In this document: in pieces, positions 45,816-50,549 of the stretch
Layout: each line of letters begins with the position of its first letter
Numbering within the stretch: position 1 is the stretch's first letter
From: Halopelagius longus
Lineage (GTDB): Archaea > Halobacteriota > Halobacteria > Halobacteriales > Haloferacaceae
Direction of reading: 5' to 3'
Assembly (NCBI RefSeq): GCF_900100875.1
Contig: NZ_FNKQ01000001.1
Span: 558,001 to 622,000, forward strand
Length of the DNA: 64,000 nt
Position numbers and translations under genes: made by a program
The notes under the pieces: model-generated
What the model saw: the letters and a program-made list of their open reading frames with translations, nothing else
What the model was told of the DNA's origin: nothing
The model's database searches: none

Positions 45816-45928
45816 CCCGTTCGCTCCGCTCTCGTTCTCTCTTTTCTCGCGTCTTCTCTCTCCTTCTCCGTCTTCGAACGCCACCGCTCTCCGCGGGCGA
45901 ACGGACCGCGACGCTCGTCCAAGAAGAC

Positions 45929-45934
45929 TTATAA
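45929..45934 (+). promoter_or_regulatory. TATA box of the zinc-ribbon membrane protein gene
   Basis: The sequence ttataa lies directly before the operator-like motif at 45936-45953. It is about 25 bases before the ATG at 45959. Confidence 0.65.
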
Positions 45935-45935
45935 C

Positions 45936-45953
45936 TGACTAACTGGTTAGTAA
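45936..45953. promoter_or_regulatory. Operator-like motif, copy 1
   Basis: TGACTAACTGGTTAGTAA contains the perfect palindrome ACTAAC-TG-GTTAGT. It lies between the TATA box and the ATG of the gene at 45959. It differs from copy 2 (47205-47222) at only two of 18 positions. Confidence 0.75.
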
Positions 45954-45958
45954 TCCAC

Positions 45959-46408
45959 ATGAGCCAGTCCGTCTCGCGGAAGCGACCGTGGCTCGCAGCA
46001 CTGCTCGGAGCGCTCGCAACGGGACTCGGTCACGTGTACCTGCGGCGGTGGCGGCGCGCGTTCGGATGGGTGGCCGTCCTGTTCGCCGTCAGCGTCCTGT
46101 TCGTCGATCAGGCGGCGTTGAGCGCGCTCGCGGCCGGGGACGCCGTCGACGTCGCGGAGCTCACCCCCCTCCTCATCGCGGGGGGCCTCAGCATCGCCGA
46201 CGCGTACCTCCTCGCCCGCATCCAGAACGCCGCCGTTCGGCTAACCGTCACCCCGGACGGGCGACTCAACAGCTGTCCGAACTGCGGCAAGGAGCTCGAT
46301 TCGGAGCTCGACTTCTGTCACTGGTGCACGGCGGAACTCGACGACTTCGAGGCCGTCATCGCGGAACGGAGCGACGAACGCGGCCGCAGAACGCGGCAAA
46401 AGGAGTAG
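45959..46408 (+). CDS. Membrane protein with C-terminal zinc ribbon
   Basis: This 149-residue protein (MSQSVSRKRPWLAALLGALAT) has about three hydrophobic helices. It ends in a cytoplasmic zinc ribbon with knuckles CPNCG and CHWC and a charged tail. The GLGHVYLRRWRRAFGW segment is typical of the TM2-like zinc-ribbon family in haloarchaea. A strong TATA box and the shared operator motif sit immediately upstream, so it is probably controlled by the TetR regulator at 47241. Confidence 0.85.
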   Translation: MSQSVSRKRPWLAALLGALATGLGHVYLRRWRRAFGWVAVLFAVSVLFVDQAALSALAAGDAVDVAELTPLLIAGGLSIADAYLLARIQNAAVRLTVTPDGRLNSCPNCGKELDSELDFCHWCTAELDDFEAVIAERSDERGRRTRQKE

Positions 46409-46444
46409 CCGACCGAACCCGAGCGTCGAACGCCGGCGCGCCTC

Positions 46445-47056
46445 TCACTCTCGGGCGTCTCGGTTCCCCATCAGTATCGCGTCGACGTACTCGTCGGCGG
46501 TCCGTCTCGCGGCTTCGAGCGCCTCCGTCTCGTCTAACACTACCGCTCGCGTGCGAGCGCCATCCACGATAGTCATCAGCGCGCGGGTCACGTGGTCCGC
46601 GTCGACGTCCTCGAACGTGCCTTCGTCGATACCGTGGTTGATGACCGCCTTGAGCATGTACCGGAGGTACTCGTCGTTCTGTCGGAACCGCTCGTCGAAC
46701 GTCTCGTTGTGCGGCGCTTGGCTCCGCATCTCCAACATCGCGACGGAGAGGTCCCGGTGCTCCTCTGGGTTCGCGAGGAGTCTGTCGAGCAGTAACTCCA
46801 ACCGCTCTTCGGGGTCGGTCGTCTCGACGTCGCGCACCGACGCCACGAACCGTTCGAGCAGGTAGTCCAGAAAGGCGGCGAGAAGCTCCTCCTTCGTGTC
46901 GTAGTAGTAGTGAATCGCGGCGGTCGATTTGCCGTACTCCTCGGCGATTCGCTTTATCGTCAGGTCCGCGTAGCCGTGTTTCTGAAGTGCTCGGTGGGTC
47001 GCGCTCATGATCTCCTCGTTCGGGTCCGAGAAGGAACGCTCCGATGGGTCGGCCAT
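46445..47056 (-). CDS. TetR-family transcriptional regulator
   Basis: This 203-residue repressor starts MADPSERSFSDPNEEIMSATH. Its N-terminal HTH contains YADLTIKRIAEEYGKSTAAIHYYYDTKEELL, and the helical ligand-binding domain follows. It is divergent from a second TetR gene, with 184 bases between starts. It lacks the shared operator in its own immediate promoter. Confidence 0.92.
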   Translation of the reverse strand: MADPSERSFSDPNEEIMSATHRALQKHGYADLTIKRIAEEYGKSTAAIHYYYDTKEELLAAFLDYLLERFVASVRDVETTDPEERLELLLDRLLANPEEHRDLSVAMLEMRSQAPHNETFDERFRQNDEYLRYMLKAVINHGIDEGTFEDVDADHVTRALMTIVDGARTRAVVLDETEALEAARRTADEYVDAILMGNRDARE

Positions 47057-47204
47057 TACCTGCAGGGTCCACCTATAGTCGGATAACGGTTTTGACCCCG
47101 AGCGCCGAACGCCGGGATAACGTACCGTCCACTCAGTCCATATCCGTCGCTAAATCGGCCAATATATCCAATTCGTATCTGCCATCCGCATCACCAAAGG
47201 CTTT

Positions 47205-47222
47205 TGACTAACTAGTCAGTAA
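47205..47222. promoter_or_regulatory. Operator-like motif, copy 2
   Basis: TGACTAACTAGTCAGTAA contains the perfect inverted repeat TGACTA-AC-TAGTCA. It lies 19-36 bases before the ATG at 47241, so the regulator probably represses its own gene. Two of 18 bases differ from copy 1. Confidence 0.75.
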
Positions 47223-47240
47223 GTGATCGTACTAACCGAT

Positions 47241-47840
47241 ATGGACGACGACCCAGCGACGGAGATACTGGAGGCAACGTACCGGTCGCTCTGCCGACGC
47301 GGATACGCCGACCTCACGGTCGAGGACATCGCCGCCGAGGCGGACCGAAGCAAGGCGCTGGTCCACTACTACTACGACAGCAAGGAGAACCTCTTCACCG
47401 AGTTTCTGGAGTACCTCTACGAGCGATACACGGCGCACCTCGCGTCCGTGGCGGGTGAAACTCCGCGCGAACGGTTGTTCTCGCTGTTCGAGGCGGTCCT
47501 CGCCGACGAGGCTGCCACCCCCGGCGAGGAGTTCCGGACCGCGATGCTCGAAGTGAAAGCGCAAGCGCCGTACGACGAAGCGATTCAAGCGAACCTCGCC
47601 CGATTCGACGAGTACCTCTTCGAACGCCTGCGGGAGATAATCGCCGCGGGCGTCGAATCCGGCGACTTCCGCGAACGCGTCGACCCGGCCACCGCGGCCG
47701 AGTTTCTCGCGACGACTATCACGGGCGCACAGACGCGTCGCGTCGCCGTCGGCTATCCGACCGACCGACTCTACGAGACGATGACTCGCTACGCCGACAC
47801 GCATCTCCTCGTGGCGGCGGCCGCGGAGGGTTCGAACTGA
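47241..47840 (+). CDS. TetR-family transcriptional regulator heading the MATE operon
   Basis: This 199-residue repressor starts MDDDPATEILEATYRSLCRRG; an in-frame GTG at 47223 is less likely because it overlaps the operator. Its HTH region YADLTVEDIAAEADRSKALVHYYYDSKENLF is closely similar to the divergent TetR, so the two may be ancient paralogues. It overlaps the MATE gene (TGATG). Its own promoter carries operator copy 2, and copies 1 and 3 lie at nearby genes. Confidence 0.93.
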   Translation: MDDDPATEILEATYRSLCRRGYADLTVEDIAAEADRSKALVHYYYDSKENLFTEFLEYLYERYTAHLASVAGETPRERLFSLFEAVLADEAATPGEEFRTAMLEVKAQAPYDEAIQANLARFDEYLFERLREIIAAGVESGDFRERVDPATAAEFLATTITGAQTRRVAVGYPTDRLYETMTRYADTHLLVAAAAEGSN

Positions 47841-49309
47841 TGGGACTTCGACGCCGCGTCGGGTCCCTGTTCAAAGGACCCGAGGAGGTCGACCTCACCG
47901 CGGGCGGCATCGGGAAACCGCTGTTCTTCCTGTCGATGCCCATCGTCGTCACGAACCTCTTTCAGACGGCGTACAACCTCGCGGACACGTTCTGGCTCGG
48001 GCAGTACAGCACCGACGCGCTGGCGGCCATCAGCTTCGCGTTCCCGATGGTGTTTCTCCTCATCTCGCTCGGGATGGGGATATCGGTCGCCGGCAGCGTC
48101 CTCGTCGCCCAGTACACGGGCGCGGGCGAGGAACGGGAGGCGGAGTACGCCGCCTCGCAGACGATGACGTTCGCCGTCGCCGCGTCGGTCATCTTGGGCG
48201 GCGTCGGCTACTTCTTCGTCGGCGAGTTCCTCGGCGTCATGGGCGCGTCGGCGGACGTGTTGCCGATGGCGACGAGCTACATGGAGGTCATCTCGCTCGG
48301 CCTCACGTTCATGTTCGGGTTCGCCGTCTTCGTCGCCCTCATGCGGGGGTACGGCGACACAATCACGCCGATGCTCGTGATGTTCGGGTCGGTCGTGCTG
48401 AACATCGTCATCGACCCGTTCCTCATCTTCGGGTGGACGGTCGTTCGGGACGCCCCCCTCGTGGGTACGGTCGCGTTTCCCGAACTCGGCATCGAGGGTG
48501 CGGCCATCGCGACGGTGTTCTCGCGCGCGTTGGCCCTGCTCGTCGGCCTCGCGATAATGTTCCGCGGAAACCGCGGGGTGCAGATTCACCTTCGGGACGC
48601 GGTTCCGAACCTCTCGTACCTCCGACGCCTCGTCCGCATCGGCCTGCCCGCGTCCATCGAGGGGACGGGGCGAGCGCTGTCGATGAACCTGCTTCTGTTC
48701 ATCGTCGCGCTCTTTCCGGACACGGTCGTGGCCGCGTACGGCATCGGGACGCGAGTGTTCTCGGTCGTCTTCCTCCCCGCGATAGCCGTCGCTCGCGGCG
48801 TCGAGACGATGACCGGACAGAACATGGGCGCGGGAAAGCCGGACCGCGCCGAACGGGCGGCCGGACTCGCGGCGACGGTGCTCTTCGGGATACTCTCCGT
48901 CGCCGGAGTCATCGTCTGGTTCGCCGCGGCGCCCATCGCGGACCTGTTCACCACGGACCCCGAAGTCGTCGACATCGCCGCGCAGTTCCTCCGCTACGTC
49001 GCGCTGACGTTCGGGTTCATCGGCCTCATGCGGGCGTACACCGGGAGCCTCCGCGGGGCCGGGAAGACGCTCACCGCGGCGGCTATCTCCGTGTTGATGC
49101 TCGGCGTCGTCCGGTTCCCCGTCGCGTGGGTCGCCGCCGGTCCCCTCGGGGAGACGGGAATCTGGCTGTCCTTTGCGGTATCGAACGTCGCGGGGGCGGC
49201 AATCGCCTACGCGTGGTACCGCCGCGGCACGTGGCGCGAGAGCGACCTCACCGAGTCGAAGGTGGACCTCGACGAGTCCGCGGTCGAAACCCCGACCGGA
49301 GGCGACTGA
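47840..49309 (+). CDS. MATE-family multidrug/cation exporter
   Basis: This 489-residue MATE transporter has twelve hydrophobic helices and a short N-terminal cytoplasmic part (MGLRRRVGSLFKGPEEVDLT). Typical sequences are LFFLSMPIVVTNLFQTAYNLAD and GVETMTGQNMGAGKPDRAE. It probably exports organic cations or other toxic compounds by Na+ or H+ antiport. It is the middle gene of the TetR-MATE-prenyl-synthase-like operon. Confidence 0.95.
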   Translation: MGLRRRVGSLFKGPEEVDLTAGGIGKPLFFLSMPIVVTNLFQTAYNLADTFWLGQYSTDALAAISFAFPMVFLLISLGMGISVAGSVLVAQYTGAGEEREAEYAASQTMTFAVAASVILGGVGYFFVGEFLGVMGASADVLPMATSYMEVISLGLTFMFGFAVFVALMRGYGDTITPMLVMFGSVVLNIVIDPFLIFGWTVVRDAPLVGTVAFPELGIEGAAIATVFSRALALLVGLAIMFRGNRGVQIHLRDAVPNLSYLRRLVRIGLPASIEGTGRALSMNLLLFIVALFPDTVVAAYGIGTRVFSVVFLPAIAVARGVETMTGQNMGAGKPDRAERAAGLAATVLFGILSVAGVIVWFAAAPIADLFTTDPEVVDIAAQFLRYVALTFGFIGLMRAYTGSLRGAGKTLTAAAISVLMLGVVRFPVAWVAAGPLGETGIWLSFAVSNVAGAAIAYAWYRRGTWRESDLTESKVDLDESAVETPTGGD

Positions 49310-49314
49310 CCGCG

Positions 49315-50115
49315 ATGGACGACTCGCCGACGGTCCGACGGAGCGAAATCGACGCGCGACTCGAAGCGGTTCTGAGCGCCGCCGACGAGCAGGGGTTACC
49401 GGCCGTCCGGGAGACGATGGAGGGACCGACCGACAGGTGGTACGGGCGACTCGTCGCGTGGTCGTACGACTCGCTGGTCGGCGACCCCGACCCCGAGACG
49501 GCGTACCCCGCGGCGGCGGCGACCGAACTCCTCTACGGATACTGTCGCCTCCGGAGCGAACTGTTGGTCCAACTCACCGACGCGAAGGCGCACTCTCTCA
49601 CCCGGGACGAGACGGCGACCCTGCTGGCCGGAGACTACCTCCGGACCTCGGCGCACTCGCTTCTCCGTTCGGTCGCTCACCCCGACATCGCCGACTGCGC
49701 CGACGCGTTCGCGGACGTCCTCGATTCGGTCACCGACGCGTTCGTCGCCGCCTACGGCCGACCGGCCCCGTCGGATCCCGACCTCCCCCCGTTCTTCGAG
49801 AAGACGGTCGGGAGCGTCGGCGCGGGGGCCGCCGCCGTCGGAGCGACGCTGGCCGGCGCGGACGACGCTCGCCGCGACGCCTTCGCGCGGGTCGGACGCG
49901 GGTTCAGCACCGCGCGGCGCATCGAGAGGGTGCTCGATTCGGACCCCGGCACGTTCGAGGTCGTACCGCCCGCCGTGGACGAGGCGGAACTCCGGGAGTA
50001 CGCGAATCGACGGCGGAACGAGGCGCGAGAGGCGCTGGAGGAACTCTCCGCTCCCGCCGACGTGAGGGCTCCTCGGACGCTCGCCGGAGGCGACCGGCGG
50101 ACGCCCGACGGGTAG
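49315..50115 (+). CDS. Prenyl-synthase-like protein without Asp-rich motifs
   Basis: This 266-residue helical protein aligns by eye with polyprenyl diphosphate synthases (ATELLYGYCRLRSELLVQLTDAK, AGDYLRTSAHSLLRSVAHPD, and KTVGSVGAGAAAVGATLAGADD). However, neither DDxxD motif is present: the first position reads YGYCRLRSELL and the second RRIERVLD. Magnesium-dependent condensation is therefore unlikely. Binding an isoprenoid, quinone or lipid, or a structural role, is more plausible. It follows the MATE gene by five bases and is probably co-transcribed with it. Confidence 0.75.
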   Translation: MDDSPTVRRSEIDARLEAVLSAADEQGLPAVRETMEGPTDRWYGRLVAWSYDSLVGDPDPETAYPAAAATELLYGYCRLRSELLVQLTDAKAHSLTRDETATLLAGDYLRTSAHSLLRSVAHPDIADCADAFADVLDSVTDAFVAAYGRPAPSDPDLPPFFEKTVGSVGAGAAAVGATLAGADDARRDAFARVGRGFSTARRIERVLDSDPGTFEVVPPAVDEAELREYANRRRNEAREALEELSAPADVRAPRTLAGGDRRTPDG

Positions 50116-50122
50116 ACGCCGA

Positions 50123-50278
50123 TTACCGCGCGGACAACTTCTCTCCGACCCACAGGAGCAACAGAACGGGCAGGAGCGGAAGCATGACGACTACCGTTAT
50201 CCCGAAGATGAGGTATCCGAACGTGCTCATCTCGACGTTCGTGAAGTCGGTTCGGGGGCGACGTACTGCTCTCGTCAT
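50123..50278 (-). CDS. Small membrane protein under the shared operator
   Basis: This 51-residue protein starts MTRAVRRPRTDFTNVEMSTF; a shorter start at 50230 is also possible. It has one strong hydrophobic helix (YLIFGITVVVMLPLLPVLLLLWV) and a basic C-terminal end. It converges on the prenyl-synthase-like gene, eight bases away. Operator copy 3 lies about 28 bases before the ATG. It may be a small efflux accessory or envelope-stress protein. Confidence 0.6.
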   Translation of the reverse strand: MTRAVRRPRTDFTNVEMSTFGYLIFGITVVVMLPLLPVLLLLWVGEKLSAR

Positions 50279-50305
50279 GTTCGGTCGTACGTGCTCGTCC
50301 GACAA

Positions 50306-50323
50306 AAACTAACTGACTAGTAA
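50306..50323. promoter_or_regulatory. Operator-like motif, copy 3
   Basis: AAACTAACTGACTAGTAA matches copy 1 at 14 of 18 positions, including the ACTAACT and TAGTAA half-sites. It lies in the promoter position of the small membrane protein gene. Confidence 0.6.
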
Positions 50324-50549
50324 GTAACTGGGGTAGCGTCCGGCCGATAAACGCGAATCTAACCCGGTAGGGGGCAGTAGGGCGCTGACGGAAAAGTCAG
50401 ACGAGAGGTTCGGGAGACGGCGACGGCGTCCGGCGACGAGGCGCGTCAACTCGAACGACTCGGGTACCGCTATGACGGTACGCTCGGGGAGGACGCTCGG
50501 CGACGCTCAACCCATCAGTTAATACCTCTCGGCGTCCGAGGAGTGTTCT

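Follow-up and report, generated by a model that had tools for sequence, protein, structure and literature searches.

A predicted TetR operator in front of a MATE exporter operon and two small membrane protein genes of Halopelagius longus

Background

Operators have, to our knowledge, been identified for only a few of the archaeal TetR regulators. The locus described here lies in a stretch of 64,000 nucleotides from the haloarchaeon Halopelagius longus (NCBI RefSeq assembly GCF_900100875.1, contig NZ_FNKQ01000001.1, positions 558,001 to 622,000), hereafter referred to as the window. The original prediction had pointed out one 18-base operator-like motif at 45936-45953, 47205-47222 and 50306-50323, in the promoters of three nearby genes, and had assigned it to the TetR regulator encoded at 47241, as the probable repressor of itself, its exporter and two membrane proteins. 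This raises three questions: whether the motif copies exceed chance, whether they mark a local regulon, and which of the two TetR proteins encoded at this locus (referred to as TetRA and TetRB) would act at them. The answers amount to a predicted operator, with predicted targets and promoter layout, for one lineage of TetR proteins found in the Haloferacaceae, Haloarculaceae and Natrialbaceae, among them the protein of crystal structure 3CRJ.

Results and discussion

A rare inverted repeat in the window

The three motif copies are present as quoted, and exceed chance. A first, looser degenerate pattern failed to tell signal from chance when the window was scanned. The refined operator consensus is the 18-mer ACTRAYYRRTYAGTNAGT, which was learned mostly from other genomes and partly from window copies 1 and 2. 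With up to three mismatches allowed, the window has 12 matches to this 18-mer versus 0.84 expected, and 12 was reached in 0/100 shuffles; when the limit is lowered to one mismatch, just the three places of the original prediction remain. The motif is not widespread in the genome either, as in the complete 3.87 Mb only four places have one mismatch or less: the three window copies, and a fourth in the promoter immediately preceding a paralogous TetR-MATE pair on contig C6. Two genomic candidates for a wider regulon, both with two mismatches, were not taken as targets, since C1:472765 is located between convergent genes, and C6:65292 precedes a sugar-biosynthesis-like operon and shows weak symmetry.

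The core of the operator is a 14-bp inverted repeat, ACTRAYYRRTYAGT, which carries a conserved NAGT extension at one end. An alignment of 47 sites from ten or more genera displayed invariant half-site letters, with the variable core positions being almost all R or Y in a palindromic fashion. Only two core sites were present in 242 kb of sequence away from TetR genes in the relatives.

Genes and promoters of the locus

The genes behind the motif copies are as originally described, i.e. a zinc-ribbon membrane protein, a TetR regulator heading a MATE operon, and a small membrane protein. The first of these, the zinc-ribbon small membrane protein (149 aa, 45959..46408, plus strand), has a C-terminal Pfam DUF7575 ribbon and a weak N-terminal DUF6677 match, and its ortholog adjoins TetRA in many relatives. 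Its TATA-like element, CTTATAAC (45928..45935, plus strand, assigned from sequence), directly abuts operator 1, the 18-mer ACTAACCAGTTAGTCAGT on the minus strand (45934..45951, no mismatches), and the sequence CTTAT(A/T)AC also abuts the operator in genomes G022 and G047. Operator 1 has an extra half-site on the TATA side, and is separated by 7 bp from the ATG at 45959.

TetRA (46445..47056, minus strand) and TetRB (47241..47840, plus strand) are divergently oriented BetI-type TetR regulators with 42% identity. Both contain the TetR N-terminal helix-turn-helix domain PF00440 (42.6 bits for TetRA and 45.8 bits for TetRB) and the C-terminal ligand/dimerisation domain PF13977 (TetR_C_6), all above cut-off, and TetRA matches 3CRJ with E=1.4e-96. 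The TetRB stopcodon overlaps the startcodon (TGATG) of the gene for a MATE-family efflux transporter of 489 aa (47840..49309, plus strand; Pfam MatE 5e-62), in which PF01554 is found in two stretches and NCBIfam TIGR00797 scores 250.8 versus a cut-off of 147.4. The third operon gene, orf5 (266 aa, 49315..50115, plus strand), has no Pfam family and only weak similarity to polyprenyl synthases, and comes after the MATE gene in many relatives. The TetRB-MATE promoter contains the TATA-like GCTTTT (47200..47205, plus strand), with CTTTT preceding the operator in nearly all relatives, and operator 2, the 18-mer ACTAACTAGTCAGTAAGT (47207..47224, plus strand, no mismatches); from the position of this operator, TetRB is predicted to be autoregulated.

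The third gene encodes a small membrane protein of 51 aa (DUF7535, PF24379; 50123..50278, minus strand), homologs of which adjoin the system in G043, G072 and G033. Operator 3, ACTAACTGACTAGTAAGT (50308..50325, no strand assigned), has one mismatch to the 18-mer and its best 14-bp core at 50312-50325. The third copy was slightly out of register in the original prediction, with the 18-mer covering 50308-50325. Copies 1 and 2 were both said to contain perfect palindromes, which is true for copy 1 with its perfect 6-bp arms (ACTAAC-TG-GTTAGT), but not for copy 2, where the 6-bp arms contain one mismatch (ACTAAC-TA-GTCAGT).

All three window copies abut or overlap the TATA region of their gene, and a TATA-like CTTTT or CTTATA is found just before the site in every promoter class. 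The TetRA promoter is of a different kind: it has a conserved element, GGTCAAAACNGTTATCC on the minus strand (47081..47097), with GGTCAAAACNGTTATC-like versions upstream of TetRA in 13/13 regions compared (two of them degenerate), and the operator was not found in this promoter in the regions compared.

Conservation of the operators in other haloarchaea

Orthologous loci were sampled from the family of the window and from Haloarcula, Natrinema, Natrialba, Natribaculum and Halopenitus. The operator in the TetR-MATE promoter is kept in about 40 orthologous loci of other haloarchaea, and in all intact TetRB loci compared it is located 14-18 bp before the TetRB start, right after CTTTT or a close variant. 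The operator in the zinc-ribbon promoter is kept in G022, G047, G084 and Natrinema hispanicum, while for the DUF7535 promoter there are aligned sites in G043 and G033 and weaker ones in G072 and G064; the putative DUF7535 operator is thus backed by few relatives, at least two to three. Among the 36 perfect sites listed for the family as a whole, 25 or more are found directly in front of a BetI-type TetR gene that is itself listed. A local TetR regulon consisting of the exporter and two membrane proteins is therefore a well-supported prediction, given the small number of sites in the genome, their placement in promoters, and their retention upstream of orthologous genes.

The survey also returned sites in other settings. 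At three loci with an orphan TetRA (L194, L195 and L198), a degenerate operator core is found some 130 bp upstream of the TetRA gene. Genome G043 has a perfect operator (L086:7306) in front of a MATE gene located further away; no TetR gene was detected next to this MATE gene, which is probably regulated in trans. At L090:3170 and L092:14836, a class-1 operator, i.e. of the type found in the window, is located about 109 bp upstream of a gene for an MscS-type mechanosensitive channel, near a zinc-ribbon-TetR operon. Haloarchaeal plasmids are represented too, with TetRA orthologs on 18 plasmid records of 0.17-0.9 Mb, and the system is thus partly plasmid-borne.

Which of the two TetR proteins acts at the operator

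We classified 48 TetRA sequences by their TetRB partner and built a tree. TetRB is intact at 24 loci, reduced to a fragment or mini-ORF at 17, and absent from seven. Nearly all of the 17 TetRB-reduced loci have an operator that is perfect or has at most one mismatch, which in 15 of them is located between TetRA and the MATE gene; in two of the 17 (L085 and L186), no MATE gene was found nearby. The TetRB remnants are mini-ORFs or fragments of 17-84 codons, and at most of these loci a short ORF remains at the TetRB start position, with its stopcodon still overlapping the MATE start; several of these ORFs are recognisable TetRB N-termini (e.g. MDDGRVADISEATHSARCRYGYANL). The mini-ORFs in L178, L180, L182-L185, L187-L193 and L197, which are either remnants of TetRB or replacements for it, reach the MATE start, and nearly all end in TGATG. 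Apparently, the mini-ORFs are kept for translational coupling to the MATE gene. Within a clade of eight Halorubrum-like genomes, the operator changes only at R/Y positions whereas the mini-ORF drifts. Parsimony gives up to about eight changes between intact and fragmented TetRB, but the well-supported branches of the tree force only two; the tree is thus compatible with several TetRB losses, with at least two changes being forced.

These loci have direct consequences for the assignment of the repressor. As nearly all relatives with a TetRB fragment keep the operator, and TetRA is their only local TetR, TetRA should be at least a co-repressor, and a motif specific to TetRB was rejected on the basis of the same genomes. 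The original proposal of a local TetR regulon is hence well supported, but its assignment of TetRB as the regulator is incomplete in view of the 17 relatives in which TetRB is reduced. There is also evidence on the side of TetRB, as it is found with its own operator without an adjacent TetRA in L088, L089, L097 and L104, and a recognition-helix pattern ending in [IVL]H[YF], with a histidine, is common to TetRA, TetRB and other class-1 TetR proteins. An exception is the TetRB of G047 (L099), which has a tyrosine at this helix position and yet adjoins a class-1 site. Both TetR proteins therefore probably bind, because nearly all loci with a reduced TetRB keep the operator, TetRB occurs without an adjacent TetRA, and the recognition helix is shared. 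Judged from these sequence patterns, TetRA is probably the core repressor, and TetRB probably an autoregulated second repressor acting at the same operator. At the orphan TetRB genes of L088, L089 and L097 the operators have drifted (e.g. ACTAATTACTCAGT), in contrast to the perfect TetRA-MATE operators of the same genomes; TetRA and TetRB may prefer slightly different sites, and their preferences may diverge once the two are separated.

The reading we favour, and consider likely, is that of one local regulon, with TetRA as the standing repressor and TetRB adding feedback at the same three operators. From the computed sites and their positions, conservation, gene order and the erosion of TetRB with operator retention, we infer the following course of binding, repression, ligand release and co-induction. 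TetR dimers would bind ACTRAYYRRTYAGT and its NAGT extension at the three promoters, in contact with or overlapping TATA box and start region, and so block transcription of the TetRB-MATE-orf5 operon, the zinc-ribbon gene and the DUF7535 gene. TetRA, made from an operator-free promoter, would be the standing repressor, while the paralogous TetRB, with a similar recognition helix and made from an operator-controlled promoter, would provide negative feedback at the same sites. A ligand, probably a substrate of the MATE transporter, would free the repressor or repressors, upon which the exporter and the membrane proteins would be switched on together.

A more elaborate version, which we put forward tentatively, is that the two paralogs form a shared-operator switch, in which they compete or heterodimerise and perhaps respond to different ligands, with lineages repeatedly reducing TetRB to a leader ORF that is kept only for translational coupling to the exporter. 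How the paralogous repressors divide their tasks is directly testable, as TetRB has been lost in many natural cases in which the operator is still present.

Two simpler assignments are each improbable. In the first, TetRA is the only repressor and TetRB, made upon induction of the operon, is a modulator that no longer binds on its own, being either a heterodimer partner or an antagonist. Such a role would fit with the lower conservation of TetRB compared to TetRA, and with its repeated erosion at loci that retain the operator and the MATE gene, but it is at odds with the four TetRB genes that have an operator in their own promoter and no TetRA next to them, and with the class pattern in the TetRB recognition helix. 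Slightly less likely still is that TetRB alone acts at all three sites, with TetRA as an unrelated neighbour: the constant distance of 14-18 bp between operator and TetRB start in every intact locus, also where no TetRA is adjacent, would be as expected, but not the perfect or near-perfect operators at nearly all 17 TetRA loci with only a TetRB fragment, nor the persistence of the zinc-ribbon operator in G084, where TetRB is a fragment as well. That the two proteins activate from these sites is very unlikely; some TetR proteins are indeed activators, but the sites here overlap the TATA box or follow it, and a protein bound at such a place would prevent the transcription complex from assembling. 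Least likely of all is that the motif represents a promoter or BRE element in general use among haloarchaea; this would explain its contact with the TATA region in every case, but is rejected by the genome scan with its four sites and the absence of the motif from the TetRA promoter, and also conflicts with the palindromic variation and the scarcity of core sites away from TetR genes in the relatives.

Paralogous TetR proteins and a putative second operator class

The same genome contains a third TetR-MATE pair on contig C6, with two operator-like promoter sites (G000:C6:61233-61278, corresponding to L101:8236-8281), one of which has at most one mismatch. As this paralog carries the same operator, which a wider group of TetR proteins has in common, cross-regulation between the C6 TetR and the regulon in the window is possible, and a third TetR could be an operator binder in some genomes.

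Another palindrome, ACCGAACGTTYAGT, is found at the same TATA-abutting position upstream of zinc-ribbon homologs in L122, L128-L131, L134, L139-L140, L142-L145 and L147, and many of these homologs share an operon with a TetRA-like TetR. The TetR proteins beside this operator have a tyrosine instead of the histidine in the recognition helix, and the combined change of residue and operator looks like a specificity switch. Separately, in Halorubrum-like genomes lacking TetRB (L120, L123-L126 and L146), the zinc-ribbon promoter contains a wider and different site of about ACTRAYCGNCCGRTAAGTTCGG in place of the usual operator, which counts against the reading favoured above.

Comparison with known systems

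The closest protein of known structure is PDB 3CRJ, a TetR of Haloarcula marismortui encoded on plasmid pNG700 (RR_RS03650), which is a TetRA ortholog with 76% identity of the encoded protein; the plasmid-encoded protein equals the 3CRJ chain exactly over 195 aligned residues. As in the window, its gene is divergent from TetRB-MATE with a perfect operator in place, but unlike the TetRA gene of the window it belongs to another species and is plasmid-borne. The papers found on 3CRJ describe no function or operator, and our search of the open literature for haloarchaeal TetR operators or a role of 3CRJ returned nothing relevant. Both TetRA and TetRB have the C-terminal TetR_C_6 type of the choline-responsive BetI, but score far under the BetI equivalog TIGR03384 (67.6 and 58.1 versus 201.3 bits), and choline genes were not seen beside them.

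Autoregulatory pairs of a TetR regulator and an exporter, such as those of the AcrR, QacR and TtgR type, are a textbook arrangement. The locus resembles these in having a TetR gene next to a drug-type exporter and an operator that overlaps the promoter, and the operator in the TetR-exporter promoter is conserved; the regulator's own promoter bears the operator in the case of TetRB, but not of TetRA. It differs from them in its archaeal TATA-type promoter, in having a MATE rather than an RND or MFS transporter, in the two paralogous TetR proteins around one operator, and in the two extra membrane-protein genes. The TetR-exporter pair is thus the known part of this system, whereas its distinctive features are an operator probably shared by two paralogs, the repeated erosion of one of these, and the addition of two membrane proteins.
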